Assembly: GCA_024280455.1 (NCBI GenBank)
Contig: JAJRQC010000095.1
Coordinates: 1-64,000 of the forward strand
DNA length: 64,000 nt
Direction of reading: 5' to 3'
Source: Deltaproteobacteria bacterium
Lineage (GTDB): Bacteria; Desulfobacterota; Desulfobulbia; Desulfobulbales; Desulfobulbaceae
The notes beneath the pieces are model-generated. The model made no database searches. It was not told the origin of the DNA and saw only the letters and a program-made list of their open reading frames with translations. This document shows positions 586 to 37,140 of this stretch, piece by piece. Each line of letters opens with the position of its first letter. The stretch's first letter is position 1. The position numbers and the translations under genes are program-made.

Positions 586-730
586 GGTGCATATACACCA
601 CCACGAGTGGTGCATACGCACCAAAAGAGACGGTATCCACACTTTTTTCCAACCAATGGAACTTTTCGGGAGGCAAATTTTTTTCTTTAATGATAGTATT
701 GTCGGTGTCGTAAAAAGCCTCGCCACCGAC
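586..730 (+). promoter_or_regulatory. purL leader with two hairpins
   Basis: The 628-bp region between the secreted-protein gene and purL holds no convincing gene. Near purL there are two stem-loops. One pairs 586-601 with 607-622 (14 of 16 positions). The other pairs GTCGGTG at 701-707 with CACCGAC at 724-730. Neither is followed by a T-run, so attenuation is not supported by the sequence. They could be operator dyads or leader structures, and no known purine riboswitch consensus was recognised. Confidence 0.35.
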
Positions 731-877
731 GGCGGCAAGGTTGTAACTTCTTGTGTTTCCGTACAGTGCAAATGGCGTTTTTGCCTTTTTACGAAACCAT
801 CAGTATTGACAGCTTATTCAGCCGTATTGCCTGTCCAATACCGCTTCTATGCGGAAAGTTTAAAAAAAGGAAAAAAC

Positions 878-14728: not shown

Positions 14729-14908
14729 GGTTGTCCTGTTTTTTTATGAGGTCTGAAGATGGCCTGATCCGGGAAAAAGCAGGGGCATGGGAAACGCCCG
14801 CTTTACAGTGCATCCAATTCCACACCCCGCACACCTGCAGGAAAATCCAGGAAAGGTACCCATTTCCCTGAAAAAAAGCTGTAAAGAAAAAGACCGTCGG
14901 AGAACCCT

Positions 14909-15412
14909 ATGAAAAATAGAATTCCAGCTCTTGTAGCAATCATCTGCGCCCTTTTCCTGCTTGCCGGCTGCGGTGGCAAAGACAGTGACCTTACGGCCTA
15001 TAAAGGCACGGCCTACCCTCCGACTACCAAAGTGAAGTATATTTATCTGTCGTCACAGGCTGCTCCCGCCTGCAGAGTTTTTGCCGAACTGCTGGTTACC
15101 CTGCCAGCCGCAATGAGTGGTGAGATGATGCGAGAACAACTCGGAACTGAGGCAAAAAAACGCGGCGCCGACATGGTCCTCATCGGCCAGAGTCGTCAGA
15201 TGGAGGATGACGAAGGGGTCAGCTTTGTCTATTACGGACCGCAGAAGGAATATCTCTGTAATGAACAGTGGTGCGGCTGGAAGTTCGGCTACGATGCCTG
15301 GGAAGAACAGGGTGACTTTGTCAATATCGGTTTTAAGGAATGGGGCAATGAAAACGTCTCGTTCGAATTTCCCGTCATGCTGCAAGCCGCCTTTCTCCAC
15401 TGCGGAAAGTAA
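14909..15412 (+). CDS. Predicted outer-membrane lipoprotein
   Basis: A 167-aa protein with a lipoprotein signal peptide ending in LLAGC, so Cys21 would be lipidated. GGAG precedes ATG 14909 by a normal distance. The mature part has a conserved-looking stretch (RGADMVLIGQSRQ) like that in small lipoproteins of the 'UPF/DUF with ADMV' type, and several further cysteines (CNEQWCGW, HCGK) that could form disulfides. Function is unknown. It is followed by an 8-bp hairpin. Confidence 0.8.
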   Translation: MKNRIPALVAIICALFLLAGCGGKDSDLTAYKGTAYPPTTKVKYIYLSSQAAPACRVFAELLVTLPAAMSGEMMREQLGTEAKKRGADMVLIGQSRQMEDDEGVSFVYYGPQKEYLCNEQWCGWKFGYDAWEEQGDFVNIGFKEWGNENVSFEFPVMLQAAFLHCGK

Positions 15413-15415
15413 ACA

Positions 15416-15438
15416 CCCACCAGTTAAGAGCTGGTGGG
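15416..15438 (+). terminator. Hairpin after the lipoprotein gene
   Basis: CCCACCAG-7 nt-CTGGTGGG, four nt after the stop codon. The T-tract is absent, so it may be a weak terminator or a 3' stabiliser. Confidence 0.5.
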
Positions 15439-15461
15439 CTAAATTCGCCTACGAGACTAAT

Positions 15462-15506
15462 AAAAAAAAGGCTGCAGCCGGTATTTTACCAGACCGCCCG
15501 CAAGCC
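15462..15506 (-). terminator. Rho-independent terminator of the AAA ATPase gene
   Basis: On the minus strand GGCTTGC pairs with GCAGCC (one bulge), with an inner GGTA/TACC pairing, followed by eight T residues at 15469-15462. The stem overlaps the last codons of the ATPase gene. Confidence 0.65.
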
Positions 15507-17741
15507 TTTCTTTTTTCGGACCTGGTCAATTCGACGTTCCAGCTCCACCCGCCACTGGGCATGGATACGGGCGGCGGAAGGGGCGATGAGCTCGGGCAGG
15601 CCGTAGACCAGACGATCAGCCGCCCGGCTGGCCTCGATAACCGCCTCGATCGAGCGGGCCCCGAATTTATAGTCAGCCAGCAACAGCCTGAGCAGCAGGC
15701 CCGAGGTCTTGCGGGCCGCTGTTTTCCAATGGGTCTGCATCTGGTGAGCAATGATAAAGGCCCGCTTTAACAAAATCCGCCGCAACTCCTCCAACTCGTC
15801 TTCGGATGCTGAATCCCTGAGCAGATGCTCCGGCACCTCGATGCCGTCGATATCGAGCACCACCCTGAGCCGACTCATGAAGTCGGGGATCTTCAGGGTT
15901 TTTGCCAGCTGCAGATCTTTGGGGTCGCCGGGAGTGAGCAGGTCTTCCATCCCCTGCCAGCTCGCCTTGACCCCACCGGCAAAGACAAAGATCGCCCGAC
16001 CGATATGGTAGGGAATACCATGGACATAGGTGACCCCATCCTGCATGGAGGGGAGAAAATAGCGAAGATAGCCGAATTCGTAGTCATCATAACGGCAGTC
16101 AAATTCATCCCAGAACGCTATCGGCACCTTACCCTGGGCCACTGAGGCCCGGATGGGATCTATGGCGGAATTAATTTCATCGGGACTTGCAAACTGAGTC
16201 AGGTTAAACTCAAAAAAATCAAAGGGACTGCCTTCATGATGTTTGGCAATCTCACCGGCCACCTGTTTGACGGCAAAAGACTTGCCCGAACCGGGAGGAC
16301 CGAACACGCCGATACACAGAGGACGCAGGACCGAGTCCTTGGACACATACGAACTCATAACGTTGTGGAGGGTAATCACCGGATCAATCTCGGCCGGATC
16401 AGTCGTCCGCAGGTGACCGAGCTGGAAGATGGGCAGGTTATCAAATCCGGTGCCCTTGTTGACCTCTTCCTTCAAATAATGCAGGACTGTGACAATGGTA
16501 TCAAGATAGTCGTACCCCAGTGAGGTTTTCCCTGCCCCCTGTTGTACCTGACGTTTACGAAAAAAAGTGCGCAGGGCCTTTTTCTTTTTCTCGCCCCAGA
16601 TCTGGCTGGCCACCAGTTCCAGGGTGGAATCGAAATCAGCGGAAAAGGCCGGCAGTTCAACAAAGGCCGGATCGTCCCGGTTTTCCAGAAAAGAACAGGG
16701 CGATCCATCCGGATAGGTGGAGGAAAAATCCAGGTCCGGGAATTCCAGACCATTGTTAAATGAATACCCCTGCTCATAGAGAATCTTCCAGTTGAGCAGG
16801 ATCCTCTTGGAAAAATCGTAAAAATAGTTCCGGCAGAACTCAAAGCCGTTAAAGCGTATACAGTCCATGGTCAGCATAGAGGTAACCATGGTATCATAAC
16901 AGGGCACCGAACCGCGATGCCGCGGTGAACTCTTTTCCGGCAGAAACCCTTTGCGATAGCGAAAATACGTACCGCCCGGGCCCACGTACAGAATTCCGTG
17001 AGGAAACATCTCGACAATAACGTGGCAGAGAAAACAATTTTTATTTTCATCCCAGATCCCGACTTCCGGGGTCCGCAAGGCCCGCAGACACATGGCAACA
17101 ATAGTTTCCCAGTTCACCGAAGCATCCATCTCCATGCGGGTGGTTTCCAGGTCGGATAAGCGGCAGAAAAGGGTAAACTTGTCTTTAAGCAGACCAGCCC
17201 ATTTGTGCCAGTGGGCGACCGAGATGCCGATGGCGATGCACCAGAATCCCGGGTTCAGGTCCATCAGATCCTCACAGACCTGGGGCGGGACTCCGGAATC
17301 ATCGATCAGGACAATACCGTTGTTGCCGCCGATAACATCAAGACTGTTTTCGGCAATGACAAAGGGATCGCCCCCGGCTCCCCGTCCCTCGGCCGGAAGC
17401 ATCTGGTTGACTACGAACCAGCCCTGGTTGGGGTTTTGTGCGGTACCGGTCGATCGTTTGCGAAATATCTGATAGACCTCCTTTTCCGTACCATAGGCCA
17501 GGGAATGAATCTTCGGTGTCAACTCGGAGGTTGTCAGATACGAGGCCAGCCAGGTCAGACATTCCTCCATCCGTCCATTTTCCACCGCAACCTTACCGGC
17601 AAGCAGTTCTATATCATCGCCGGGGTTATAGCCATAGGCGGGCAGACTGCCTTCTTCAAGCAGGCTGACCTCCTTGACCGGCAGGTTGTAAATTTTAACA
17701 TTGGAACCAAGAAGCAGGATTTTCGGCGAAGAATCAATCAT
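15486..17741 (-). CDS. AAA ATPase with a large N-terminal domain, possibly PfkB-like
   Basis: A 751-aa cytosolic protein. The C-terminal third is an AAA ATPase: Walker A GVFGPPGSGKS near residue 480, Walker B PIAFWDEFD near 540, then a sensor-type stretch and an arginine-rich helical lid. The N-terminal ~300 residues show a pattern I associate with PfkB-type sugar-kinase folds: KILLLGSN at the start, a GIVLIDDSG strand near 145, a CRLSDLE...NWETIV stretch near 195, and GILYVGPGGTYFRYR near 255 followed by a Pro/Gly loop. This resemblance is tentative; catalytic kinase residues are not evident, so ligand sensing is more likely than catalysis. No partner gene is adjacent. It could be a stress or defence ATPase; nothing in the sequence proves it. 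Confidence 0.8.
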   Translation of the reverse strand: MIDSSPKILLLGSNVKIYNLPVKEVSLLEEGSLPAYGYNPGDDIELLAGKVAVENGRMEECLTWLASYLTTSELTPKIHSLAYGTEKEVYQIFRKRSTGTAQNPNQGWFVVNQMLPAEGRGAGGDPFVIAENSLDVIGGNNGIVLIDDSGVPPQVCEDLMDLNPGFWCIAIGISVAHWHKWAGLLKDKFTLFCRLSDLETTRMEMDASVNWETIVAMCLRALRTPEVGIWDENKNCFLCHVIVEMFPHGILYVGPGGTYFRYRKGFLPEKSSPRHRGSVPCYDTMVTSMLTMDCIRFNGFEFCRNYFYDFSKRILLNWKILYEQGYSFNNGLEFPDLDFSSTYPDGSPCSFLENRDDPAFVELPAFSADFDSTLELVASQIWGEKKKKALRTFFRKRQVQQGAGKTSLGYDYLDTIVTVLHYLKEEVNKGTGFDNLPIFQLGHLRTTDPAEIDPVITLHNVMSSYVSKDSVLRPLCIGVFGPPGSGKSFAVKQVAGEIAKHHEGSPFDFFEFNLTQFASPDEINSAIDPIRASVAQGKVPIAFWDEFDCRYDDYEFGYLRYFLPSMQDGVTYVHGIPYHIGRAIFVFAGGVKASWQGMEDLLTPGDPKDLQLAKTLKIPDFMSRLRVVLDIDGIEVPEHLLRDSASEDELEELRRILLKRAFIIAHQMQTHWKTAARKTSGLLLRLLLADYKFGARSIEAVIEASRAADRLVYGLPELIAPSAARIHAQWRVELERRIDQVRKKKGLRAVW

Positions 17742-22094: not shown

Positions 22095-23609
22095 TTACTC
22101 CACTATCTCACGACCCGGTTTGGCGTCCTTGAAATCAACCGATTTTGTTTTCTTGGTCATCTTATCCAGGCAAAATACGTTCTTGCTGACAACACGCCTT
22201 AGTCGGATGTCAATCAGGGTTGTACCGTTTGGGTGCAGTGCCTTGGCAAGCAGGTCCTGTGAGGCGCTGATGCTGCATGGAAGGTAGCGCACAAATCCAT
22301 CTTCCGGTCTGGCCACAATCTTAATGCCCAAGGATTCCGCCCCGGTCATCTTTTTCCGGACAACTTTACCTTTGTTATTTCGTACCGCTTTACATCCGGT
22401 CATTGCGTTGTAGTTAAAAAAGTAGGTAATAATCTCCGGATTGATCGAGTTTCGCTGGCGGTCGGCAAAGAACCCCCTGGGAAGATGGTTTGGATCATTC
22501 TCCGGGCCGGCGGTCAAAATAAGATCAAAATCGTGTACGGAGTAGCCCTCATCATCGCGTACCCTGAAGATAACCATTGAAAATTTATCATGGTAAAACT
22601 TTGTTGCAGATTTCAACAAATGCGTTTCCACTTCAAGCAATTCTTTTTCCTGCACACTCTCGGTTTCATCTGCAAAACGACGGCACAGGCTGTCATACTG
22701 CTCTTTGGTCCGGATCATCAGGCAATCAAAAATCGCCGCCACGGTTTCCCTGCTCTTCCTGTTGGTTATCCCCTCTTTGACGCTGCGCATAATGCCCATC
22801 TTCTTGCCGGAGTGGGATTTTTTACCGACTATCCTGAAGGCTGCCGGCGGAGATTCAACAAACTCTTCAACCTGCAGGTCGTCGGCTCTATACTCCCCCC
22901 TCTGCTTAATCGGGTGCTGCTGAACCAGCTTGATATACCGGCCGCAGAGATTTGCCGCCGCAGCCCGGACAACCCCATCAGAACCCAGTTCTCCGGTATA
23001 GCTGTTTAAGTTATCATAGAAGGCCCGGTCTATGTATTGACCGGTTAGCACAAAGGGAAATATACCCTCAGGGCCGATCCGGCTGCCGTCGCTGCGGATC
23101 CAGCTCGTATTGAGCTCCCATGCCTCTTCACTGCCGAGCTCAAGCCAGTCAAGCACACCCTGTCCGGGCTCAACTCCGCCGAACCACGATTTAATCCGGC
23201 CCAGTCTTCCCTTGCCCAGCTGGGCCAATGCCGAACCATAGTTGGCAGGGGCCAACATGATAAGATGGCTCATCGGGCAGGTTGTTCCCCCGGTATCAGC
23301 GCCATAATAGCGGTGCCACCAGTCCCGAATAACGGGACCGCCTGTTGAATGCGTAATACACACAAAGCGATTTCCCTGTTGCAGCAAACCGGAGAGTTCA
23401 TCCGCTACGGCCGCCTGAAACGCCCGAGAGATATCCTTGACCCGGACCTCGTCATGAAAACTGATGTAACGGCCGAGGAATATCTGTTTTACCTGGATTT
23501 CCATCCCTGCGGCCCGGGCTTCATTGCGCAGCCGTACAGGAAGACCGCCATAAGTAGCAGTATCGGTTACACTCCAGCCATGCACAAACACAACAATACA
23601 TTTTTGCAT
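22095..23609 (-). CDS. Alpha/beta-hydrolase, lipase-like
   Basis: A 504-aa protein whose first ~230 residues are an alpha/beta-hydrolase: VVFVHGWSVTD at the oxyanion end and the nucleophile elbow ITHSTGGPVIRDWW near residue 95, with Ser in HSTGG. This resembles triacylglycerol-lipase/phospholipase-like proteins (PGAP1/DUF676-like), including some secreted toxic lipases. No signal peptide is seen. The C-terminal ~270 residues (from about 235) are not recognised; they are basic and contain FSMVIFRVRDDEGYSVHDFD. A GGGAG ribosome site precedes ATG 23609. It stands alone with no immunity-like or T6SS gene nearby, so an effector role is speculation. Confidence 0.78.
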   Translation of the reverse strand: MQKCIVVFVHGWSVTDTATYGGLPVRLRNEARAAGMEIQVKQIFLGRYISFHDEVRVKDISRAFQAAVADELSGLLQQGNRFVCITHSTGGPVIRDWWHRYYGADTGGTTCPMSHLIMLAPANYGSALAQLGKGRLGRIKSWFGGVEPGQGVLDWLELGSEEAWELNTSWIRSDGSRIGPEGIFPFVLTGQYIDRAFYDNLNSYTGELGSDGVVRAAAANLCGRYIKLVQQHPIKQRGEYRADDLQVEEFVESPPAAFRIVGKKSHSGKKMGIMRSVKEGITNRKSRETVAAIFDCLMIRTKEQYDSLCRRFADETESVQEKELLEVETHLLKSATKFYHDKFSMVIFRVRDDEGYSVHDFDLILTAGPENDPNHLPRGFFADRQRNSINPEIITYFFNYNAMTGCKAVRNNKGKVVRKKMTGAESLGIKIVARPEDGFVRYLPCSISASQDLLAKALHPNGTTLIDIRLRRVVSKNVFCLDKMTKKTKSVDFKDAKPGREIVE

Positions 23610-24006: not shown

Positions 24007-24040
24007 CCTGCCCCCTCCCGCATGATGTGGGAGGGGCAGG
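24007..24040. terminator. GC-rich hairpin ending the secreted-protein operon
   Basis: CCTGCCCCCTCCC at 24007-24019 pairs with GGGAGGGGCAGG at 24029-24040. It lies 17 nt past the stop of the 967-aa gene. A short T-tract follows only on the plus strand, so its polarity is ambiguous. Confidence 0.55.
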
Positions 24041-24056: not shown

Positions 24057-26960
24057 TCAATGGGACAGAATGGCGGGCAGGAACATGGTCCACTGGAAGT
24101 GGTGTCCCACGCTGAGCTCGATGATGAGCGGGTTGCGCTCGGTGTCGTTGCTGGGCACGCTGAAGCTGTCCGTCATCACGGTTTTATCGGCCGGTGCGAC
24201 CCGGACCGTGATCCTGCAGGACTGGTCAAGGCCAAGCGTCACCCCGCTGCACTGATCGGACTGGATGATGAAGGGGGCTGCCAGGGCGTCACCGCTGCCC
24301 ACCGTGCCAATGGTTACCGCCATCTGGCCCAGGTTGCTGATGGTGATGGTCTGGTCTGCGCTGCTGCCGGGAGTGACAGAGCCAAAATCAACCCGTTGCG
24401 GATCTGCAGTGATGTGCATGCCCGGGTAGAGTACGTCGACCACAAAGCTTGCGCTGTCAAGGCCGGTGTTACCGGCCCGGTCCGTGGACTCGACCCGGAC
24501 CACGTGAATACCCTCGGCCAGTGGTGCCAGCCGTTCACCCGACCTGGTGGCCACGGGTACGTCATCCACAAACACGGCTGTACCGAATCCCTCACTAATG
24601 GTGTAGGCAAGCATGGGGTCAAAGCGACCCACCGTACTGCCACTGGCCGGTTCCGTTATGGCAACCTGGGGCTTGGTCAGGTCGATGACGATTTCGGCCA
24701 AACCGTATCCGTGCACCATAGCACCGTTAACCGCTGTCATGGACAGCAGATGCACGCCCTCGGTGGTCAGACCGCTGATCGGACATGACCAGGAGTTAGC
24801 ATCAGGATAGCTCACCGCGCCGGTGGTGCCGCCGGCAAGGGACAGGGTTACCGTGGCCCCGGTGCCGCGATAGCCGGTCACGACCTGGGCCGGCTGGTTG
24901 GTGGGGCTGCGGTAACCGATTGCATAAACGGCGATACCCGGGTTGGTACCGGCTGCCCATTCGTCGGCATCGCCGATGCCGTCGTTGTCCGTGTCGGGAT
25001 TGAGCGGACTGGAGCCAAAGGCCATCTCCACCCCGTCGCTGAGGCCGTCATTGTCATCGTCATCATCGCACACATCGCCCATGCCGTCCCCGTCGGTGTC
25101 CAGCTGGCTGATGTTGGCAATGCCGGGACAGTTGTCCTGTGCATCGGAAAACCCGTCGCCATCGGTGTCCGCAATAAAGGGATCCGGTCCCTGCTGCAGC
25201 AGTTCGACAAGACCGGTCAGCTGGTCGTTGTCCAGGTCGTTACCCGGTGCCAGTACCTGACAGAACGGCTTGCCGGTATCTTCCAGCTGCGCGTAGGTGT
25301 AGCGGAGCCCGAGCAGGGCCAGGTAGGCACCCTGATCCTGCTGGAAGTAGATGGCCGCGGCCGATTCAAATCCTTCCGGATCTTGACTGGCAATGGCGGT
25401 TATCTCCGATCGGACGGCGGTACAGGAGTCATCCAGGATATCAGCGAATTCCACCATCAGGCTGTTGATGTCCCGGTGCTGCCGGGCCAGTTCACCCCTG
25501 ACCGTGTCGATGAGGGCCAGCCGCGGCTGGTGACCGAATGAGCCGAAGCCGAACCAGATTCCGGGCTCCAGGCTGGCACGGATCTCCATGGCCCGGGCCA
25601 GCAGGCCGAGATCAGCCCGGTCCGATGCCGTGATGTCGAAAAGATTTACCTGCACCCTGAGGGTGTTTGCCAGAAACTCTTCATACAGGGCCTGCCACTG
25701 CGCGGCCGTGGTCCATGTACCGGTCACGTCCCCGGGGTTCGGATCGGGAATCATGGGCAGGTAGCGGCTCAGGGCAAGCTGGTCATCCGGGCGTACGGCC
25801 CGCAGGTATCCCTCGCGTCCCATGGGAACCCAGGTTGTAGTGAAGCTGCCGTCGCCAGCCACCGGTGCATTCAGAAGTATTTCGCCGTCCAGTGTGGTAA
25901 TATCTAGTGTGCCCGCATTCCAGGTACCGGCACCGCCGGCAAGGGAGCCGGAAATTTCCGCCTCTACCTCGTAGAGCCGGGTGGCGGTTGGTGTTTCAGC
26001 GGAGTTTGCAGGGCCGGTACCCCGAATATTTTCATCCCAGTCACTCCAGCCGTCCTGGTCCGTGTCCATGGGCAGACTGAGCGGATCGTCGGGATTGGAT
26101 CCACGCAGGATTTCATCGATGTCACTCATTCCATCCCTGTCCCTGTCCGATCCGCTGTCGCCGTCTGTCATCACTGTCAGCGGATCAAGCCCGTGCGCGA
26201 TTTCCCAGGTATCGGGATAGCCGTCTCCATCGCTGTCCCTGTTCCAGTCCGCGGGGTGATTGATGGTGTAGGAAAAGGAACGCTCCGTGGTATGGGTTAC
26301 ATGCGTGACAGCTTCGGTGTATACGGCCCGGACCACAAGATCCCGGGACCGGTCGAGATACAGGGTGTAAGGACTGCCGTGGAGAATGGAAAACTGGCCG
26401 CCGTCCGCAATGACGATGCTGCAGTTGCCAACCGGGGCGCCCGGCCAGGGCAGACAGGTGAACTGCAGGGCCAGGGTGTTGCTGTAGGTACCGGGTGGCT
26501 GGCTGACACTCAGCCCGGGCACATCGGGCGTGGTATTGGTGAAAAAGGATTCATCAAAGGTGTACATCGATACCCGGGGCGCTCCGGTGGGCGGGGGCGG
26601 GCTTGTCCCGGCCAGGTCATTGGGTACGGCGACCTGGCCGCTGCCGAGGCTGAAGCTGGTGGACTGGGTAGTCGTCAGCACAGGCGGCTCACCGGCCTGC
26701 CATAACTGATGGGTAACCTGGCTGCCGGAGACCACCGTGGTCCAGTCGTCGAGATGATAGGTAGCTGTTACCTCGCCGTCACTGTCAAAGACGAGCAGGT
26801 TGGCCGTAGTCGATTCGTTCCAGGCCAGGGCCGCCGGCATCGTGGTACAGAGTATTGCCCAGACGAGGAGAAATCCACTGAGCAGTATCGGCAGGGCATG
26901 TCCACGGGGCCGGAGGACAGCCTGATGAGAAACGGACAGCATATCTCGGATATTTTTCAT
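24057..26960 (-). CDS. Secreted calcium-binding repeat protein (third gene of giant operon)
   Basis: A 967-aa exported protein. A signal peptide with an unusually long n-region ends near residue 46 (ILCTTMPAALAW). Asp-rich thrombospondin type 3-like calcium repeats occur twice: around 245-320 (NRDSDGDGYPDTWEIAHGLD) and around 590-665 (DTDGDGFSDAQDNCPGI). Residues ~680-850 contain Ig-like folds, including a bacterial-Ig stretch with YTISEGFGTAVFVDD. The end (~855-950) is a choice-of-anchor D/ASH-type module (VDFGSVTPGSSADQTITISN). No LPXTG, PEP-CTERM or autotransporter barrel is visible, so the anchoring mode is unknown. Its start overlaps the stop of the preceding gene by 4 nt, indicating coupled synthesis with the 1076-aa protein. 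Confidence 0.85.
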   Translation of the reverse strand: MKNIRDMLSVSHQAVLRPRGHALPILLSGFLLVWAILCTTMPAALAWNESTTANLLVFDSDGEVTATYHLDDWTTVVSGSQVTHQLWQAGEPPVLTTTQSTSFSLGSGQVAVPNDLAGTSPPPPTGAPRVSMYTFDESFFTNTTPDVPGLSVSQPPGTYSNTLALQFTCLPWPGAPVGNCSIVIADGGQFSILHGSPYTLYLDRSRDLVVRAVYTEAVTHVTHTTERSFSYTINHPADWNRDSDGDGYPDTWEIAHGLDPLTVMTDGDSGSDRDRDGMSDIDEILRGSNPDDPLSLPMDTDQDGWSDWDENIRGTGPANSAETPTATRLYEVEAEISGSLAGGAGTWNAGTLDITTLDGEILLNAPVAGDGSFTTTWVPMGREGYLRAVRPDDQLALSRYLPMIPDPNPGDVTGTWTTAAQWQALYEEFLANTLRVQVNLFDITASDRADLGLLARAMEIRASLEPGIWFGFGSFGHQPRLALIDTVRGELARQHRDINSLMVEFADILDDSCTAVRSEITAIASQDPEGFESAAAIYFQQDQGAYLALLGLRYTYAQLEDTGKPFCQVLAPGNDLDNDQLTGLVELLQQGPDPFIADTDGDGFSDAQDNCPGIANISQLDTDGDGMGDVCDDDDDNDGLSDGVEMAFGSSPLNPDTDNDGIGDADEWAAGTNPGIAVYAIGYRSPTNQPAQVVTGYRGTGATVTLSLAGGTTGAVSYPDANSWSCPISGLTTEGVHLLSMTAVNGAMVHGYGLAEIVIDLTKPQVAITEPASGSTVGRFDPMLAYTISEGFGTAVFVDDVPVATRSGERLAPLAEGIHVVRVESTDRAGNTGLDSASFVVDVLYPGMHITADPQRVDFGSVTPGSSADQTITISNLGQMAVTIGTVGSGDALAAPFIIQSDQCSGVTLGLDQSCRITVRVAPADKTVMTDSFSVPSNDTERNPLIIELSVGHHFQWTMFLPAILSH

Positions 26961-29900
26961 AGCGTGTTCACCCAGTTGCTGGTCATCACCTTGAGGGGCT
27001 CACCGGTTACAGGATCAATGGTGACGAGTTTGTAGCGGACCTGGCTGCTGCCTGCAAAGGGGTAGCGGTCCTTAAACAGTACCCGTACCCCGCGACCGAT
27101 CCCGACCGGATCGTCAACCCCGTGAATGACCGAATCATCGACATCCATGAAGGCGATAAACGGGTCATGGAGCAGGCTTTCATATTCCTGGGGGCTGCCG
27201 TGCCCCGTGCAGTGAAAACCCTCGACCAGGGGACTGACCTGGACAAAATCATGGCCGCTTTCCTGGCGGTAGACAATGAATGAGGTGGCGGGCAGGGACT
27301 GGCCGATGAAGTCACAGACCGGGCAGTTCCAGAACGAGAACTCCTCGGTGCGCAGGCAGGATTCGCTGCTGTCGGCGATACAGTCCGGGAGCTGATCGCA
27401 GTGCGGGAAAAACCTGGTCTGGTCGGTGAGGGCCTCGCTGAGGACCAGTACCGGCTGATCATCCGCCCCGGTCTTGAGGTAGAAGGCGCCGAGCGTGCCG
27501 TTGACCTCAGGTTCGGCCACCGGCGGCCAGGGCAGGTTTTCAGCGGGTGTCTCCTGCCAGGTGGCACACTGGAGATTCGACCAGTCCCCGGCCAGCATGT
27601 CGGTGGACAGGGCCCGGATCTGGAAACACCATTCCTGCCCGTCCCATGGCGTGTCTACCGGCCAGGAATAGGGGTACAGTCCCATGTCATCCTGTTGGAC
27701 ATCCCAGAGACTCTGGTAGCTGTCGCCGTCCGATCCCTGGATCCTGACGATATATGAGCCTATCCCAGCCACGGGCATGCTCCAGTGCAGGTCGAAAAAG
27801 GTCTCGCCTTCCCTGGTCACCGGCTCGGCCGGATTGAGCAGCGGTGCCGGTGGAGGTTGTTTGTCCTTGGCATGCAGTTCCATGCAGCCCAGGTACAGCA
27901 TCCGGGAACCCACGTGGTTGGCGCTGAAGGTTCGGACCCCGAGGCAGATATCGGCCGGGGCCAGTCCGGCCAGGTCGTCGAAGGTGTGGCAGAATGTGCC
28001 GGAGGCGGCCGTCGTGGGAAAGGTGTAAAACGGGCTCATGCCCGAGGGTGTCTGGTGATAGCCCCTGGCCGACTCTTCGGCCTCGAGCTCGACGCAGATC
28101 TGTATCGGATCGTTGAGTATTGGGATGATACTGGTATCCGGGGGCAGCCATCTGCAATATTTATCCAGGGGCCAGCAGCCGTTGTATGCACAGATCGTTC
28201 CCAGATTCAGTGGGTCGCTGGTGGCGAGGATCTGGCCGTTACTGTCGTAATACCGGACAAAAATTTCCGAATTCCCGTAACAGCCGATGAGTTGACACTC
28301 ACTGTCCAGCGGAAACACATCCCAGCTGATCCGGGCGATGCCCTCCTGATCAAGGTCACCGGTCGCAAGGAGCTGATCAAAGATGCCGGTTTCACCATCA
28401 CAATGCATGAAGACCCCGTACCTCGTTGCATCGCCCCCGGTGAGGTCGCGGAGAATAAAGGTGTCCAGTTCACCCGGTTCGACCCCGCATTCGCCTTTGT
28501 TGATGGAGTAACTGCACTTCTGGCTCCGGATCTCGGCTGACGGGTTGGGCTGGCTGCGGTCATACAGGACTCCCCGCAGGGGTGGGGAGAGGGGACTCTG
28601 GTTGCCCTGGGCATCCACTGCCAGGACCCGGTACCAGTGAACCTTGTTGTCTGCGGCAACGCTGGTGTCGATATAGAACATCTGCCGGTGGCTGTCGTTC
28701 AGCCACCGCTGGTAAGCGGGATCACCGGGATTGATCGTGGCCGCCAGGGGCAGAGTTCCTGACGGATAATCGGCCGGATTACAACTGTCGGTCAGGTTGA
28801 TCGGGTTATTTTCAATGGCATCGGGCCACAGGTCACCGTCGCTGTCCTGGCCCCAGGCCGCGGCATCCTGGGGCGAGTCGAAACGGAAAACCAGGTAATG
28901 ATCCACAGCCAGGTCGGCGCAGTGCGGGGTGTCGGTTTCGCACGATTTGCCGGCATCGACCCAGCAGATTTCATGGGCTCCGGAAGAGCAGAAGGTCCGG
29001 CTGTCCTTGTAATAGCGGGCAAAGTTAACCGGATCCGGGGCATCCCAGACCAGGGCCAGCTGCGGCATGGTGTCGTCGGCCGGATCCTTGATCTCCTGGG
29101 AATGGGCATTCCATACCGCCTGGGGCGGCATGGCGTCCACCACCGTCATCTGGACCGGGGTGACCGGGCCGCAGTAATGACTGCTGATATCCCGGACTGC
29201 CAGGTAATACCAGTACTGTTGCCCGCGTATCCAGGCCGGACCGCTGGTATGGTTTTCCGGACCGTCCTTGGCCAGGAAACTGTTGGGGCCCTCGGCGGGC
29301 GGTGGTCCGGCCGCCACCACCGGTTCCTGGTTGACCCGGTGCAACTGCGCTGGAATACCGCTGCGCAGGTCGAGTGTGCCCTCGTCGTTTTCCGACCAGA
29401 ACAGGTCATAGCCGTAGGTCACGGCCTTGAGTGCCAGATCCTGCGGAGCCGAGGGTACATCCCAGGTCATATGGATGGCATTGTCGTCCTTGCCGCCGCC
29501 CAGGGCGGAACAGGTCTCCAGCCGTACCTGTGCCAGACCGGTGGGTGCGGGCAGCACGGTTTCCGTGGCCGGCTGCACCCCGTTGATCTCGCCGATGGGC
29601 TTGGATTCGGTGTTGTTGGCAACAGCGGTCAGGATGTAACTGTAAGTGGAGCTGCTGTTGACCGTGCTGTCGATATAGGCCAGCCCCTGGCCACGGGCCG
29701 CGCTCAGGTGCGCCCGGGTGAGGAGCATGGTCACCAGCGGGTCATGGTCAGGCAGGCTGGTGTCAAGGAGCTGGTGCAGGTAGGCGGCGGCATTGGCGGT
29801 GGTGACCGGTCCGCCGCCCTTGCTCCTGGAGTGGCGATCCAGGTCGTGGACCAGAGCCTCGGTGCGCCACGGTTCGTCTGACTGAAGCAGGCTGGCCAGC

Positions 29901-30187
29901 ACTTCGACCACAGCCAGCTGACGGGGGATCTCCGCGATCAGCTGGTAGCCGGTGCCGCCGGTTTCGCGGTACAACTTGAACTGCGCTATTTCCGCGGGGA
30001 TGGCACCCTCCAGTGGTCCCCATTCCAGGATGACCTGCGGGGATGCCCCGTCCGGATGCTCGACCAGGGCGGTGAACAACATTTTGCCGCTTGCCGCGGT
30101 AGCAGGCGTGCCATGGAACACGGCCAGGAGGAGGAAACAGAGCAGACACCAGAAAATGTGTCCTCTTCTTTCAGTATATTGACCCAT
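26957..30187 (-). CDS. Large secreted fibronectin III-like protein (second gene of giant operon)
   Basis: A 1076-aa exported protein with no recognised enzyme domain. The start at 30187 is preferred because GGAGAAGAAG precedes it directly and a signal peptide follows (IFWCLLCFLLLAVF, cleavage after ATAA); the frame extends 29 codons further upstream without a ribosome site. The body alternates fibronectin type III-like strands, with repeated W-x-x-P and Y-x-(I/L)-(R/T)-A-V-D/N motifs (YSYILTAVANN, WYYLAVRDIS, WYRVLAVDAQGN, WCFQIRALS) and one Asp-rich patch (GQDSDGDLWPDAIENN). Cysteines are frequent and often paired, suggesting disulfides outside the cytoplasm. It starts 28 nt after the 2084-aa gene ends. 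Confidence 0.85.
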   Translation of the reverse strand: MGQYTERRGHIFWCLLCFLLLAVFHGTPATAASGKMLFTALVEHPDGASPQVILEWGPLEGAIPAEIAQFKLYRETGGTGYQLIAEIPRQLAVVEVLASLLQSDEPWRTEALVHDLDRHSRSKGGGPVTTANAAAYLHQLLDTSLPDHDPLVTMLLTRAHLSAARGQGLAYIDSTVNSSSTYSYILTAVANNTESKPIGEINGVQPATETVLPAPTGLAQVRLETCSALGGGKDDNAIHMTWDVPSAPQDLALKAVTYGYDLFWSENDEGTLDLRSGIPAQLHRVNQEPVVAAGPPPAEGPNSFLAKDGPENHTSGPAWIRGQQYWYYLAVRDISSHYCGPVTPVQMTVVDAMPPQAVWNAHSQEIKDPADDTMPQLALVWDAPDPVNFARYYKDSRTFCSSGAHEICWVDAGKSCETDTPHCADLAVDHYLVFRFDSPQDAAAWGQDSDGDLWPDAIENNPINLTDSCNPADYPSGTLPLAATINPGDPAYQRWLNDSHRQMFYIDTSVAADNKVHWYRVLAVDAQGNQSPLSPPLRGVLYDRSQPNPSAEIRSQKCSYSINKGECGVEPGELDTFILRDLTGGDATRYGVFMHCDGETGIFDQLLATGDLDQEGIARISWDVFPLDSECQLIGCYGNSEIFVRYYDSNGQILATSDPLNLGTICAYNGCWPLDKYCRWLPPDTSIIPILNDPIQICVELEAEESARGYHQTPSGMSPFYTFPTTAASGTFCHTFDDLAGLAPADICLGVRTFSANHVGSRMLYLGCMELHAKDKQPPPAPLLNPAEPVTREGETFFDLHWSMPVAGIGSYIVRIQGSDGDSYQSLWDVQQDDMGLYPYSWPVDTPWDGQEWCFQIRALSTDMLAGDWSNLQCATWQETPAENLPWPPVAEPEVNGTLGAFYLKTGADDQPVLVLSEALTDQTRFFPHCDQLPDCIADSSESCLRTEEFSFWNCPVCDFIGQSLPATSFIVYRQESGHDFVQVSPLVEGFHCTGHGSPQEYESLLHDPFIAFMDVDDSVIHGVDDPVGIGRGVRVLFKDRYPFAGSSQVRYKLVTIDPVTGEPLKVMTSNWVNTL

Positions 30188-30215
30188 TCTTCTTCTCCGG
30201 TTGAGACATCCAGTA

Positions 30216-33200
30216 TCAGTCACAGCAGTGCACATCCGGTCCGGTGATCGAGAGATCACCGGACACGCCGTCATTCATCAGGTAGGTGGCGGTGAACGAG
30301 GCATCACCGGTGAGGCACCAGCTGTCGCCGCGCACGTCGCCCACGTTCTGCCAGGAACCGGGTGAGCAGAAACCGATCCCGGCCCCGGCCCAGCCGCTGC
30401 CGTTGAACTTGTAGTCGCCGCCGGATTTCTGGCCGATGCAGCGGAGCATACCCTTGATCGAGGCCAGGCAGCCCAGGCTGCCATAGGCCGAGCCGCCGAA
30501 CAGGCCGCCATAAGTGCCCGGTGACGGATCGGCAAAGTACCACGCCCCCACGTCTACACCGGCGCCGACGGTGAACCAGCAACCACCGTTGTAGATGGGT
30601 ACGCTCACCGAGCCCCTGGCATAGATGCCTTCCAGCTTGGGCAGGGGACCGATGAACTCGGCGATCTCGGGATCAAGCCGCTCCAGGACCGCGAAGTCGC
30701 AGGACCTGCCCACGAAAAAGGCGGCCTTGGGAATACGGTACTCCTGGAACCGGCCCGCGCCGGTGGCACCAAAATAGGTCTCCTGGGCACCGACACCTAC
30801 CTCGAGGCCGAGATCCTCCAGGACAAGGACCTCAAAATTGATATTGCCGGCCAGGTAGCAGTTGCCCAGAACTCCGACGGGACCGCTGTTTGAGTTGATG
30901 GTGAAGCCGAGCATGGCGGTCTTGATACCCACGTCCATGCCCAGCATATCGGCGGTCACATCATGGGTGGAGATGGTCACATCGAAATAGTTGCCCGGAT
31001 CTGCAACACATCCGGTCTTGCCGTTGTCCGCCTTCCAGGAAGTCACGTCCAGGGCGGCATTGTAGCTGGTGGGATCGGGATCCTGACCGAATACAAATTC
31101 GGCGCCCATGTGGATGCGCTCGAATTCATCCTGGCTGACCAGGGCATAGCCGTCGATACCCACCGAACGGAGTCCCCAGTCACCGCCGCCGATGGGCAGC
31201 TTGGATCCGGCCAGCTGGTCGGACATGGACTGGTTGACCGCGTCCACGGTCTGGCGGATCAGCTCGTTCATCCTGTCGGTCATGGCCGTGGAAATGGTGT
31301 CCAGCTGGTCGCTGAGCAGGCCGAACTGGCTGAAGAACACCTGGTTGACCTGATCCACCGGATTGGTATTGAGCACGCCGATGCGAATCATGTTGCGGAT
31401 GTCATTTTCAGAGGGCTGGGGCAGACCGGCGGTGACCGCGGTGATCGAGGTATCAAGCAGTTCCGCCAGGCCTCCGGCTGCGGTATCTTCGAGCAGGGTG
31501 GTAAAGGGTTGGCCGATCAGGCCGCTGAACTTGCTTTCAAACAGGGTGGCGAAGTTCTGGTTCTGCACGTTGAAAATCGTGCCGGCAGTCGTGTCCAGTG
31601 CTATCTGCGCCGCTGACTGGACATCGCTCCAGCTGGTAATGGAACTGTTGATGGGCTGGCTTGAGGCAACGGCCTGGCGCAGGGCGGCAAGCTGGCCCTG
31701 CAGGGTGTTCAGGTCGTTGCGAACCAGCGGATCAATCTGACGGATTCTGGTCTGGATTGCCTGCAGTGACGCGGCAAGTGTCTTGAGCCTGCCGTACAGG
31801 TTGTCAGTCGGGCCGTCCTTGATGAGATCATGGACACCCGACAGGATCCCTGACAGGGGCAGGGAGCCGTACGCCGCCTGCAGGGCCGCGTCAGCCTGGG
31901 CGATAACGCCGTCAAGTTCGGCAAGGGCCGAGTCGATGGTCTGGCGGGCCGCGTCGATCAGCGAGGTGTCGATGGAGGCTCCACTCAGGGCGGCTGCCTG
32001 CTGCAGGACCGTGCCCAGGGGACCGAAGTCGATGGCCGCGATCACGTTGCGGATCTGGGTGATGTTCTGCCGGGCCTCGTCGACCTTGCCCAGCAGGGGA
32101 TTGACCTGCGGATCCGGCGAGGCTAACCCTGACAGGTTCTGGTCCAGGGCATCGCCCAGGCCGCTTAGCGCCTCCCGGGCGCTTTGTGTGGCCCCAAGCA
32201 GGGTGGTGATGGCGCCGTCCACCGGCCGTGTCAGGGACTCGACAGCACTGGTGTACTGTATCACACCGCTGTCCAGCCGGTTGATCAGCTGGTCAATGGA
32301 TGTTCGAAACGCATTGACAGAAATGAGCATGGCCGAGATTTGTTCGTCCGTGGGCCTGCCGGTGCTGATAGCCAGCAGCTGGTCATTGTCGTACACCGCC
32401 AGGGCGGCCAGGTAGGCTGAGCTGTATAATTCGGAAAATGATCCGGTCATCTGCGTGGAGATGCGTCCGAGAAGGGCATTCCGGGTATCGCGCATGGGCT
32501 GGAGCAGGATACCGCTGACCTGTGCCGGTGCCTGGTGGGCCAGTGTCAGCGTGCGGGAGACATCCCGAATCACGCTGTCCAGGGGCGGTTGCTGCAGCAG
32601 GGTATCCAGGGATTTGCCCATTGGAACGAGCAGGTCGCCACCGGTCATATCGCGCATGTTGTCTTCAAGGTCATGCAGGCAGACACCCGTGGGGCAGAAG
32701 ACGCTGTCAAGGCTGAACGAATCGGGAACATGCAGCACGTTGTGAAGAAAGGTATCCACGGAACCGGTGATATTGCCGGGGTCGATCTGAAAGTTTTTCT
32801 GCATCTCGGCAAGATCGGCACTGGCGCCAAAGGAGAATTTTGTCTTTTGCGGGTTGATATAGTCCGGCACCGAGTGAACCTGGATAACCTTCATGATATC
32901 CGAATCTTTGCGAATTCCATTGAATAATGGCATATCCTCGCCAGAGGCCCGGGTGTACTGGGCATAATAGTTCAGGTCGACCATGGAGGATGTCGGCCAG
33001 GAGTATTCGAAGTAGGGGCTGGGCGGGTGCGGGTTGTCTGGCCGGAGCAGGGCCCGGTAGTCCGGAACATCGAGCTGGTAATTATCCGGCACGCCGTCGC
33101 GAGGCGTGGGCCCGCCGCCGTCGTTGTCGGTTTCGTCCTGGAAGACAAACAGATCATAACTGGATGGATCGTCGATATCGCGGTTATCGAACTGTCCGGC

Positions 33201-36200
33201 CAGGCGGGTATCGTTGAACAGCGGCACATCGGTCAGACCGGCCAGTACCGTGAACCCGGACCAGGAGGGGAGGGTGGGAGAGATCTCGTTCAGGTAGGCC
33301 GAGCGCAGCCGGATACCAAACCCGGGATCATCACCATTGGGTGGTTTGTCAAACCAGGTCTCCACTTCACCCGACATCTTCTGGTGCTCTATGGTGCCCG
33401 TGGGTGTGTACATGCCCGACATAGCCAGGGACTGGCCCAGGCCGTCCACCTGGTTGCGGGTGTCGATGGTGAGCAGCCTGTTGCCGGAGGGGCACATCCC
33501 GCCTGGGGGATCTGTATCCGGGTCGTTTGCAAAGCCCATGGCGGCCAGCAGCACCGGCATGTTCCAGTAGGCCAGAGTCTGGCAGGCCCGGTGCTCACCC
33601 TCGCCGCTGCAGTCGGGCCAGTCCGGCTCGGGCTGGGCATCAATGGTGCCCGATCCCAGGTTGCCGTTACAGGTGAGATCCAGGTTGACAAAGGAGACCT
33701 CGAAGTCTTCCTGGCTGCCGTCGGTGTTCCAGGCCACCGGTCCGTCATGCAGGGTGAGGCTGCCGTCGATAAAGGTTTCGCTGTCCAGCCGGTTGCGGTC
33801 CTGGCGGAAGGCGAACCGGTCAAAGGCAAGGTCATAGCCATAGATGTTAACCAGGCCGCCCTCGTTGACATTAAAACTGGTGTTGAACACACCGGTCAGG
33901 CCGCCGGGACGCAGCACATATTTGACCGCGCGGCGATCATCCATTTGTACCGGTGATTGCGGGGAAGATGATGACGGGGGTTCATAAAAATGTACCCAGG
34001 TGCTCCGATTAAGGAATGCACCGATACCCTCCTCCTGGGTAGTGTATTTTTCCGGACCGAGGTTGAGCCCCGGGAAGATACCGTTACCCAGGGTGGCGTC
34101 GGCCAGGGCCGCGTCATTGAGGGGCAGGAAGGTGTCGGGACCGCCCCCGGAAAACCCATATGCACCCAGCAGTACCTGGCCGAGACGATAGGGAGAGTCC
34201 AGTGTCTCGCTGGTACCGGGCATGATGAAGCCGGGCACCAGGAAGGCTCCCTGCCGGGAACGGTCATGGCGGACAAAAGTGGAGGGATCCTTGTCGGACA
34301 GGGCACCCCATTCCACCGAGTCCTCGCCTGTGGGGTTGAAATCCTGATCCAGGTTGGGCCCCAGGTCGGCAAATTTGGCACCATAGGCACCGGTGGTATT
34401 GAAAAATACCTGTTCGGCCGCCACCCGGTACCAGGTCGAGCCCGAGCCGGAACAGTCCGCGGATTCCCGACAACCCTGGCCGAACCGCATGAACAGCTGC
34501 ACACCAAGAAGTGGGCCGGTGCTGTCAATGGTGCCACCGCTCAGCCTGAGATCCCAGTCGGCAAAGGTGATGAAGGCCCGGGGAAAGGAGGTCTCCAGAT
34601 CAAGGCTGCCGTAACCCTTGATGGGCAGGGTTCCGCCCAGTCCATTCTGGTCAAGCACAATTGTGCCGGAACCGCCGTCCCGCAGGAAAACAATATCATT
34701 GGAGGGGAAAAATTTGCGCAGGTCGTCCGCAGCCAGGCTGTTGATGGCCTCCTGGTGGACGTAGAGCGTATGGCTGTTAGAGGCGATCAGGCCGGAAGAG
34801 CCATACAGGTCAAGGGAGAACTGGGTCGAACCGATATAAAACGGCAGTCCGTAACCATGCAGAAAAGGTGACGGTGTGGCCATCAGGGTGACGGTTTCCA
34901 GGGTCCTGGTGAAACTGGAACCGCTGAAGACCATGGTATGCTGTCCCCGGGCAAGGGGATAGCCGGTGGAGGCGTTGACCTGATGCACCGTAACGTCTTC
35001 GGGCAGGGTGATCGTTGCGGTGGAGAATGTTCCACCGCTGCTGTCGAGGACCATATTCTCCAGTTCCACGTCCATGCCGGAAACCGTTGTCTCGATATCC
35101 CCAAAATCAGCCTCGCCCGACAGAATACTCAGATCCACGCTGTAGCCGTCCGGGTTATACATACGGCTGGGGCAGAGCTGGGTGCCGTTGGTGTCAACCA
35201 TGGATTGTGGAGAAAAAATGTCTGTCCAGCTCAGGTCGATGGTGTTGACAGGACGGTACCATGCTGTACTAGTGTAGCACCATGAGGTGGTACTGAACTC
35301 AATGGTTGTAAAATCAGTGGCTACCTCGTTGAAATAGAGCAGACCGGAGTAGACCGTGAACTGAAATGGTGTTTGCGCCGTGTCGTCCCCTGACGTGGTA
35401 TCGTGCTCTGTACTCACCGTGGAGATAAAGCTGTGGCTACCGGTATGCAGCTGGTCGCTGTCCGGCCCGTCCTGGGGCAGGGCATAACTGTTGGTGGAGA
35501 TGGTATAGGTATAGACATGGTTTGCAGTATCTTCCTGCCAGCTTGGCGTCAGCAGTTGAGCAGTGTAGGTTCTGATTGTCGCGCCGTCCTGCTGCAAGGT
35601 GGTGTCCAGAACCACCTGTGCAGGTGGTGTGCCGCTACATTCCAGGCGCATGCCGGCAAGGGAGAGTTCGGGCGGTGTCTGGTCCTTGACCGACCATGTG
35701 TTGCCGCCCAGGCTCGGCCCCTGGGCCAGGGACAGGTCCTGGATGACTGTCACGTCGGTGGAGTATCCGTCCGTATTGGCGGACCGGTTGGTGCACAGGC
35801 CCGGGGTGGCGAAATGGTCATCCCACCACTGGGCAGTCCAGGCACCGCCCAGGGCGGAAAAGTAATCGCTGCCGCTGCACATGGAGGTGCTGGACCTGGT
35901 CAGCGTGGTAATGGTCTGCTGACCGCCATTGTAGAGTAGGTTCCCGGAATAGACCGTGTAGTCAAAGGGAGCACTGGTGACCAGGTTGTTGTTGAGATCG
36001 CTTTCTCTGGCGGTGGTGGAGATTTCAAACCGAAAGTTATAGGTGCCGGTGCGCAGCTCGGAGGCGGACAGCCCTGTATCGGGCATTTGGAAGATGTAGT
36101 GGAGTTCAGAGTTTCCGTTCCGGTAGAGCGGTATATAATAAAGGGTGCTACTAAAGGAAGACTGAATCCAATTTTTGCTGGTGTACGTGTAGTTGTCTCC

Positions 36201-36470
36201 ACGGACAACCGATCCGTTGCGCATAAGGGTTGTGGCCAGGTCGGTGCTTTCGGGTACTGATTCGCTGGAATCTGCCAGCTCGCAGATAAGGGCCCCGGTG
36301 TAGGTCTTATCCTCCGGAACATTGTTTTTGATCACGTAATTAACACTGTCGTCAATGGTAACGGTGTTGTTGTAAAAGTACAGATCCATGGCACGGGAGA
36401 CCGTGGGCAGGAAGAGTACAGGCAGGAGCAGTGTCAGCAGGTATCCGTTCAGACGCGTGGCGTGCGACAT
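30216..36470 (-). CDS. Giant 2084-aa secreted protein (first gene of giant operon)
   Basis: I do not recognise this family. A clear signal peptide (LLTLLLPVLFLPTVSRA) follows a strong GGGAGG ribosome site. Residues ~27-370 hold two related beta-rich units of about 175 aa, each containing T-P-F-x-(Y/F)-T-V-Y-S-G, a Cys-containing loop and an N-x-DGYS-x-D stretch. Residues ~370-1170 are beta-rich with Asp/Gly loops. Residues ~1210-1720 are predicted mostly helical with heptad-like patterns (TLQGQLAALRQAVASSQ), long enough for a coiled-coil stalk. The last ~350 residues are Gly/Cys-rich beta sequence ending CCD. There is no obvious sorting signal. Base composition is GC-rich compared with the SNF2 or papain regions. 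A surface filament, sheath or adhesin component is the best guess. Confidence 0.85.
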   Translation of the reverse strand: MSHATRLNGYLLTLLLPVLFLPTVSRAMDLYFYNNTVTIDDSVNYVIKNNVPEDKTYTGALICELADSSESVPESTDLATTLMRNGSVVRGDNYTYTSKNWIQSSFSSTLYYIPLYRNGNSELHYIFQMPDTGLSASELRTGTYNFRFEISTTARESDLNNNLVTSAPFDYTVYSGNLLYNGGQQTITTLTRSSTSMCSGSDYFSALGGAWTAQWWDDHFATPGLCTNRSANTDGYSTDVTVIQDLSLAQGPSLGGNTWSVKDQTPPELSLAGMRLECSGTPPAQVVLDTTLQQDGATIRTYTAQLLTPSWQEDTANHVYTYTISTNSYALPQDGPDSDQLHTGSHSFISTVSTEHDTTSGDDTAQTPFQFTVYSGLLYFNEVATDFTTIEFSTTSWCYTSTAWYRPVNTIDLSWTDIFSPQSMVDTNGTQLCPSRMYNPDGYSVDLSILSGEADFGDIETTVSGMDVELENMVLDSSGGTFSTATITLPEDVTVHQVNASTGYPLARGQHTMVFSGSSFTRTLETVTLMATPSPFLHGYGLPFYIGSTQFSLDLYGSSGLIASNSHTLYVHQEAINSLAADDLRKFFPSNDIVFLRDGGSGTIVLDQNGLGGTLPIKGYGSLDLETSFPRAFITFADWDLRLSGGTIDSTGPLLGVQLFMRFGQGCRESADCSGSGSTWYRVAAEQVFFNTTGAYGAKFADLGPNLDQDFNPTGEDSVEWGALSDKDPSTFVRHDRSRQGAFLVPGFIMPGTSETLDSPYRLGQVLLGAYGFSGGGPDTFLPLNDAALADATLGNGIFPGLNLGPEKYTTQEEGIGAFLNRSTWVHFYEPPSSSSPQSPVQMDDRRAVKYVLRPGGLTGVFNTSFNVNEGGLVNIYGYDLAFDRFAFRQDRNRLDSETFIDGSLTLHDGPVAWNTDGSQEDFEVSFVNLDLTCNGNLGSGTIDAQPEPDWPDCSGEGEHRACQTLAYWNMPVLLAAMGFANDPDTDPPGGMCPSGNRLLTIDTRNQVDGLGQSLAMSGMYTPTGTIEHQKMSGEVETWFDKPPNGDDPGFGIRLRSAYLNEISPTLPSWSGFTVLAGLTDVPLFNDTRLAGQFDNRDIDDPSSYDLFVFQDETDNDGGGPTPRDGVPDNYQLDVPDYRALLRPDNPHPPSPYFEYSWPTSSMVDLNYYAQYTRASGEDMPLFNGIRKDSDIMKVIQVHSVPDYINPQKTKFSFGASADLAEMQKNFQIDPGNITGSVDTFLHNVLHVPDSFSLDSVFCPTGVCLHDLEDNMRDMTGGDLLVPMGKSLDTLLQQPPLDSVIRDVSRTLTLAHQAPAQVSGILLQPMRDTRNALLGRISTQMTGSFSELYSSAYLAALAVYDNDQLLAISTGRPTDEQISAMLISVNAFRTSIDQLINRLDSGVIQYTSAVESLTRPVDGAITTLLGATQSAREALSGLGDALDQNLSGLASPDPQVNPLLGKVDEARQNITQIRNVIAAIDFGPLGTVLQQAAALSGASIDTSLIDAARQTIDSALAELDGVIAQADAALQAAYGSLPLSGILSGVHDLIKDGPTDNLYGRLKTLAASLQAIQTRIRQIDPLVRNDLNTLQGQLAALRQAVASSQPINSSITSWSDVQSAAQIALDTTAGTIFNVQNQNFATLFESKFSGLIGQPFTTLLEDTAAGGLAELLDTSITAVTAGLPQPSENDIRNMIRIGVLNTNPVDQVNQVFFSQFGLLSDQLDTISTAMTDRMNELIRQTVDAVNQSMSDQLAGSKLPIGGGDWGLRSVGIDGYALVSQDEFERIHMGAEFVFGQDPDPTSYNAALDVTSWKADNGKTGCVADPGNYFDVTISTHDVTADMLGMDVGIKTAMLGFTINSNSGPVGVLGNCYLAGNINFEVLVLEDLGLEVGVGAQETYFGATGAGRFQEYRIPKAAFFVGRSCDFAVLERLDPEIAEFIGPLPKLEGIYARGSVSVPIYNGGCWFTVGAGVDVGAWYFADPSPGTYGGLFGGSAYGSLGCLASIKGMLRCIGQKSGGDYKFNGSGWAGAGIGFCSPGSWQNVGDVRGDSWCLTGDASFTATYLMNDGVSGDLSITGPDVHCCD

Positions 36471-36672
36471 ATTGTTTCCTCCCGGGAACGGAGAAGATCT
36501 TGGGTGTGCCGTCCGCTGATTTCAGGTACCGGAGTGGACGGCTGCGTAGTATGCAACGGGTTTGTATTTTATAGAATGCTACCAGACCACAGGTTACAGA
36601 TCGGGTACAAATCAGAAAAAAAATGTTTTTTTTTGTTTTTTCTCCAGCCTGCTTCCCGACCCTGGATTGTAT

Positions 36673-37140
36673 TCAGGTCCGGAGCAGGGGGATCTGCAAA
36701 AAACCGGGTATCCATGTGGGCCCATTCCCCGTGTAGACGGGAACCAGCAACCACTTGCAGCAACCCCGCTTCCGCTGTTCAATATTTGATCTGACAATGG
36801 CAACCTCTCTTGTTCTGTTGCCCCGGTACCTGTCTAGAATTGGCTCAATATGGGAATCCGCATGAAAAATAAGCTGGATAATGCTGCCATTGGGCAAACC
36901 GGCCCGGAACAACCCCTCCAGTGAGGTAATTATCTTGGGCCCGGCATAGATAACCGGCGTACATTCCCACAACATTCCAAAACTGCAATCCTGGTTGAGA
37001 TAGATTTCCAGTCCAGGATCATGGGCCAGATAGTTCAGAAAAGAAGAGAACGGCGAACGCCTGATCATATTCTCCAGATCCCTATGCTTCAAATAATTCC
37101 TGGGACCAAGAACAGCCCGTTGCAATAGTTGCGCAAACAT
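36673..37140 (-). pseudogene. traC/virB4 5' fragment (F-type conjugation ATPase)
   Basis: 155 codons of which the first ~115 resemble the N-terminal domain of TraC: FSSFLNYLAHDPGLEIYLNQ, CSFGMLWECTP and GLPNGSIIQLIFHAD, matching the 'YL.Y..-(I/L)(Y/F)LN-D.S.GF.WE(C/V)' pattern. TraC powers assembly of the F-type type IV secretion channel. Full proteins are ~800-850 aa with Walker motifs; none remain here. The similarity fades near 36780, after which an A/T-rich stretch leads to the giant secreted-protein operon. It begins 3 nt after the traV remnant, in the order seen in F-like tra operons. Confidence 0.65.

Follow-up and report, generated by a model that had tools for sequence, protein, structure and literature searches.

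Three co-inherited genes for large exported proteins and a recurrent C-terminal tag in the Desulfobulbales

A stretch of 64,000 nucleotides (the window) from contig C105 of a draft genome of 4.15 Mb (G000) contains three consecutive genes for very large exported proteins, referred to here as g1, g2 and g3. Such a locus raises the question of whether the three products form one structure at the cell surface and, if so, by what means this structure would be held there. A preliminary description made from the DNA alone had proposed parts of one cell-surface structure such as a sheath, filament or adhesive fibre. In this study, the distribution of the three genes, the domain content of their products and the C-terminus of g3 were analyzed, and the possible functions were weighed against each other.

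Layout and distribution of the three genes

The open reading frames match the sizes and the tight spacing given in the preliminary description (Table 1), with a gap of 28 nt between g1 and g2 and a 4-nt overlap (ATGA) between g2 and g3; an alternative, longer g2 would start at an ATG at 30274 and overlap g1. The T-run of the hairpin that follows g3 lies on the + strand only. The block was also said to be GC-rich, which agrees with a GC content of 60.4% compared with 51.9% in the remaining window; the second triplet of this genome stands at 54%. Combined with the patchy distribution of the triplet, these values suggest, without proving, that the block was laterally acquired.

Table 1. Features of the three-gene locus (nucleotide positions in the window unless residues are given)
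Feature	Position	Strand	Description
SD-like site	36471-36490	-	GGGAGGAAACAAT, ahead of the g1 ATG
g1	30216-36470	-	2084 aa, exported protein
g1, N-terminus	residues 1-28		signal peptide
g1, beta units	residues ~29-175 and ~263-375		CARDB-like, linked domains up to ~480
g1, middle part	residues ~480-1190		no family assigned over ~700 residues; beta-rich as judged by eye
g1, helical region	residues ~1265-1760		helical, coiled-coil-like
g1, C-terminal domain	residues ~1765-2084		conserved Cys-rich beta domain, ends CCD
g2	26957-30187	-	1076 aa from the inner ATG; exported, Cys-rich, without a known family
g3	24057-26960	-	967 aa, exported protein
g3, architecture			unique N-terminal part, TSP3 repeats, unique ~270-aa core (residues 325-592), TSP3 block, Big_13/Ig, choice-of-anchor D (residues 850-941), C-terminal tag
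g3, C-terminal tag	24057-24098	-	F-Q-W-T-M-F-L-P-A-I-L-S-H, then stop
GC hairpin 3' of g3	24012-24036	.	11 bp, strong, terminator-like

The neighbours of the triplet in the window are ordinary (purL, an SNF2 helicase, cytochrome bd, an aminotransferase and an efflux pump). No neighbouring gene common to different triplet loci was seen among the readable loci, and no transporter or peptidase gene is conserved beside the triplet in the loci that were compared. Just upstream of g1, a frame of 155 aa (36673-37140, - strand) matches the TraC type IV secretion ATPase family over no more than its first ~94 positions and is a short or truncated remnant of a conjugation gene. A protein of 504 aa that resembles alpha/beta hydrolases, weakly supported by Pfam (22095-23609, - strand), is encoded downstream of g3 on the same strand and was not seen at the other triplet loci. 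In G231, a protein of 2186 aa with a DUF7948/SBBP propeller, Big_5 and HYR is encoded directly upstream of the copy on contig C87 and on the same strand (L028, 382-6942).

In profile searches of 258 genomes of the Desulfobulbales, an order of sulfur-cycling bacteria, g1 was found in seven, and g2 and the repeat-free core of g3 were found in the identical seven. The copy numbers of the three genes are equal, with two in G000 and G231 and one in each other genome. The preliminary description had pointed to independent occurrence of the genes as the observation that would speak against it, and no such case was found in these genomes. A 52-aa match of g2 in G099 (E = 8e-4) and a match of g1 in G370, which falls in the helical region (E = 3e-4), were treated as noise. 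On every contig that spans the triplet (the window, contig C63, G042, G242, G243 and G231:C6), the genes stand in the order g1-g2-g3. Contig breaks interrupt the triplet in G102, G107, G231:C87 and G337; in G102 the end of g1 adjoins g2-g3, and in G337, which belongs to a different family, g1 and g2 are adjacent. Contig C63 carries the second full triplet of the window genome, the products of which are 47% (g1), 51% (g2) and 46% (g3) identical to those of the window copy. In the rest of the phylum (a sample of 395 genomes that overlaps slightly with the order) there is one clear further genome with the triplet, G337, and no further carriers were found in its family. A scan of additional genome contigs returned only WFRY01000183.1, which is the contig of G042, a relative from the family of the window host, and searches of PHROGs, plasmids and viral contigs gave nothing useful.

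The g1 tree contains two well supported subfamilies, with which the less resolved g2 tree is compatible. These subfamilies do not track the hosts, since both are present in G231, and two genomes of one genus, G102 and G107, differ in the subfamily that they carry. Owing to this independence from the hosts and the exact co-occurrence of the genes, the triplet appears to travel or to be lost as a unit.

Domain content of the three proteins

In each protein, one hydrophobic export segment was found at the N-terminus, as expected from the signal peptides that had been reported for all three, and no other membrane-spanning segment. g1-g3 contain no haem (CxxCH), RTX, LPXTG or lipobox motif, and readings as an electron conduit, an RTX adhesin, a sortase substrate or a lipoprotein, respectively, were dropped for this reason. 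No catalytic family was matched at permissive thresholds, in line with the earlier remark that no enzyme is present, and no adhesin, pilus or S-layer family matched the triplet. The remark that no known anchoring signal is present holds for the lipobox, LPXTG and a C-terminal span; however, g3 ends in a candidate anchoring signal, which is the shared C-terminal tag described below.

Beyond coiled-coil noise, no known family was found for g1 or g2, with the exception of CARDB (PF07705) in one of the nine g1 members (E = 1.9e-7); no CARDB match was obtained for the window protein. The second g1 subfamily aligns best from residue ~250, that is, with one N-terminal unit fewer. The helical region of ~500 residues in the preliminary description is backed by the hydrophobic periodicity, which peaks over residues 1265-1760 at 102 degrees per residue, the value of a coiled coil. 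The best conserved part of g1 is the C-terminus, so that the protein has no variable C-terminus, and this domain has no Pfam match. Sequence searches of the PDB gave only coiled-coil noise for g1 (E 0.26) and nothing for g2. AlphaFold predictions of g1 residues 1195-2084 and 1762-2084 reached pLDDT values of 31 and 30, respectively, which are attributed to the use of only one other sequence in the input of each; they were not used for fold searches, and the secondary structure of g1 taken from the model is of low confidence.

All 24 cysteines of g1 and all 26 of g2 are conserved in the three closest members, which would fit disulfides formed outside the cytoplasm. The fibronectin-like units that had been ascribed to g2 were not recovered: no Fn3 match in Pfam was obtained in nine members at E<=1, and alignment to one Fn3 sequence by hhalign, a weak test, gave a probability of 0.2%. 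The resemblance is one of a sequence read by eye only. In addition, no internal repeats were detected on alignment of g2 with itself by hhalign.

In g3, the calcium-binding Asp repeats of the preliminary description are TSP3 repeats (PF18884, 57.8 bits against a gathering score of 25) in four stretches with seven DxDxDG sites, and the choice-of-anchor D domain scores 50.6 bits against a cut-off of 45 (NF012200). The C-terminus of the protein is exchangeable. The tag is present in both copies of G000 (the window and C63), G042 and G102, the common end peptides of which are, in this order (window, C63, G042, G102), HFQWTMFLPAILSH, PFPWLLFMPVMLGNNN, NFPWILFLPAFIK and SFPWLLFLPAVLSGR, whatever domain precedes them. 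In both G231 copies and in G242, the tag-less g3 closes with PKD repeats and the half-dockerin-like motif D-x-D-x-DG-x-D-[IL], which is a single half motif and gave no Pfam dockerin match. The g3 fragment of G243 contains the same PKD domains and its end is not seen. The two G231 copies belong to different subfamilies, and G231, G242 and G243 belong to family f13, in which there are no tag sites. Since the tag-less f13 genomes carry the PKD/dockerin-like ends, the host accounts for the end of g3 better than the subfamily does, a pattern to be expected if anchoring or export relied on a host-specific signal; with few loci, this is suggestive only. G107 is an exception, as there are five tag sites in the genome, yet the end of its g3 is dockerin-like.

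A recurrent C-terminal tag in otherwise unrelated proteins

The tag has the consensus F-[PQ]-W-x-M-F-L-P-A followed by a short tail. The residues after the W are P/T/A, M, F, L, P, A and I/M, and the remaining positions of the tail hold 49 K/R/H and 5 D/E residues. With so short a hydrophobic part, the tag would not make a classical membrane-anchor helix. A degenerate DNA pattern (W-x-[ML]-F-[LM]-P) gave five matches in the genome of the window compared with one for a reversed control, and all five lie at the C-terminus of an open frame, namely both g3 genes, an LRR protein, an InlB-repeat protein and a short propeller-type frame. The strict F-P-W pattern gave 82 sites in 32 of the 258 genomes of the order, with at most 11 per genome, and none for the reversed control; these figures are an undercount, because no site was returned in G102 although its g3 carries the peptide. 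Inspection of 40 distinct sites in the order, two with very short or gapped frames, showed a stop 12-26 residues after the F in 39, and the remaining one runs off the contig. Outside the order, the sampled genomes contain two strict-pattern sites, a non-gene frame of 18 aa and a site in the interior of a membrane protein, which are chance matches.

The carriers are otherwise unrelated and include beta-helix/choice-of-anchor Q, FG-GAP, LRR, Kelch/choice-of-anchor J, InlB-repeat, SBBP and TSP3 proteins; those with a complete frame mostly have a signal-like N-terminal segment. No CTERM model of NCBIfam matched g3 or ten tagged proteins, the tag lies outside every NCBIfam and Pfam model matched by the carriers examined and no description of it was found in the literature searched. 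The tag, which is the main addition to the preliminary description, may be a hitherto undescribed signal by which proteins are retained on the cell surface.

Two to four genes in a row, all with products ending in a tag of the FPWxMFLPA type, form arrays at loci L105 (G012:C7, 4245-14240), L106 and L108. Beside the array of L105 is a gene for an 816-aa protein (14334-16784, - strand) with no NCBIfam match, in which the stretch NFLPAILGH, near the N-terminus and just after a signal-like segment, resembles the core of the tag. A histidine kinase and a sigma-54-type response regulator are encoded beside tagged genes at L110 (4792-8638, contig C33 of the window genome) and L108 (4333-8086), with identities of 46% and 52% between the genomes. 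An assignment of this pair to PrsK/PrsR was rejected because the scores were below the cut-offs; by NCBIfam they are of the generic NtrC/AtoSC type.

Possible function and comparison with known systems

That the three proteins are parts of one system, as proposed at the outset, is strongly supported at the genomic level by the occurrence of all three in the same seven genomes, the equal copy numbers and the second intact triplet. The domains, export signals, conserved cysteines and g3 tag are consistent with a surface structure, which is plausible; a stoichiometric sheath or filament is unproven. On balance, the triplet probably encodes an obligate, extracytoplasmic, calcium-stabilized and disulfide-rich assembly of three proteins, most likely an adhesin or surface fibre that g3 would hold in place. 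All three proteins would be exported and would contact each other, with g1 and g2 building an extended structure, stabilized by calcium and disulfides, in what might be a fibre-like geometry. In this structure, g1 would be the elongated main subunit, with beta head units, a coiled-coil stalk and a conserved C-terminal docking domain, and g2 would be a rod or adaptor. As the cell-proximal subunit, g3 would tie the assembly to the envelope via its exchangeable C-terminal module, which in the host of the window would consist of choice-of-anchor D and the tag F-[PQ]-W-x-M-F-L-P-A with its short tail. Points against this reading are the lack of a match to any known adhesin, pilus or S-layer family, the shortness of the hydrophobic part of the tag and the dockerin-like g3 end of the tag-bearing genome G107. 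More tentatively, F-P-W-x-M-F-L-P-A and its tail could be an undescribed C-terminal sorting signal of the Desulfobulbales with its own machinery, and the triplet a new three-component surface fibre, the anchor subunit of which is refitted with the C-terminal signal of the host.

The three proteins might instead be released together as a non-anchored matrix complex, such as a biofilm or floc scaffold, that cross-links cells or polysaccharide, with the tag serving as an export cue, for example in type II secretion. TSP3, PKD, Ig and choice-of-anchor domains are common in matrix proteins, g1-g3 have no transmembrane anchor or lipobox and the tag could not form a membrane helix. However, the basic-leaning tail at the very end of the tag suggests attachment more than release, as does its replacement in other hosts by a dockerin-like, binding end, and a released matrix is considered unlikely. 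Still less probable is a complex that binds, takes up or enzymatically processes a macromolecular substrate, with an unrecognized catalytic or ligand-binding fold in g1 or g2 that g3 keeps near the cell. Although ~700 residues of g1 (480-1190) and the whole of g2 have no assigned fold, and dockerin-like ends occur on scaffolded enzymes, the lack of any catalytic family match at permissive thresholds and of a conserved transporter or peptidase gene adjoining the triplet in the loci compared argues against such a complex. Giant proteins with a helical stalk, the three-gene arrangement, the patchy distribution and the GC island could also belong to a large multi-subunit toxin or a contractile or injection machine. 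This reading is disfavoured and highly improbable: no Rhs/SpvB-type, phage-tail or PHROG family was matched, each protein has its own export segment, which is usually missing in such machines, and g1 has no variable C-terminus, conservation being highest there.

The triplet shows partial likenesses to several known systems. The layout of g1, with a beta head and a long coiled-coil stalk (weak coiled-coil match, E 0.26), is shared with trimeric autotransporter adhesins; however, no YadA-type outer-membrane anchor is present in nine members, and g1 ends in a Cys-rich beta domain. Similarly, g3 resembles MtsC/MtsD and CglD of the Myxococcota (TSP3 cell-cohesion proteins and a gliding lipoprotein) in being exported, in its calcium-binding TSP3 repeats and in its presumed surface role. 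Only the TSP3 stretches match, whereas the full-length cut-offs are missed (45.4 bits against 350 for MtsC and 22.7 against 800 for MtsD); furthermore, g3 has no MYXO-CTERM, and these models pick up neither g1 nor g2. The PKD and half-dockerin-like motif of g3 in G231 and G242 recall PKD/dockerin-ended secreted proteins, whereas the window g3 lacks this ending.

The tag is comparable to the signals of the PEP-CTERM/exosortase, GlyGly-CTERM/rhombosortase and MYXO-CTERM/myxosortase systems, since it is a short C-terminal motif with a basic-leaning tail on many unrelated exported proteins of one clade, but it has its own motif, FPWxMFLPA, and neither an invariant Cys nor a transmembrane helix. 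MYXO-CTERM consists of an invariant Cys, a transmembrane helix and an Arg-rich end (PMC11980579); g3 is not a member, having no Cys in the tag and no C-terminal hydrophobic span. With no match to a CTERM model and no LPXTG in g1-g3, the proteins also fall outside the PEP-CTERM, GlyGly-CTERM and LPXTG groups. The triplet, with ~4,100 residues of conserved exported protein that are mostly without a family, is one genetic unit and a definite target for the surface biology of the Desulfobulbales. The tag, which is compact and can be tested, is a candidate signal of a new route by which Gram-negative bacteria would sort proteins; it would predict which unrelated proteins are held at the surface, and its machinery could be revealed by a phylogenetic profile, as was that of PEP-CTERM (PMC1569441).
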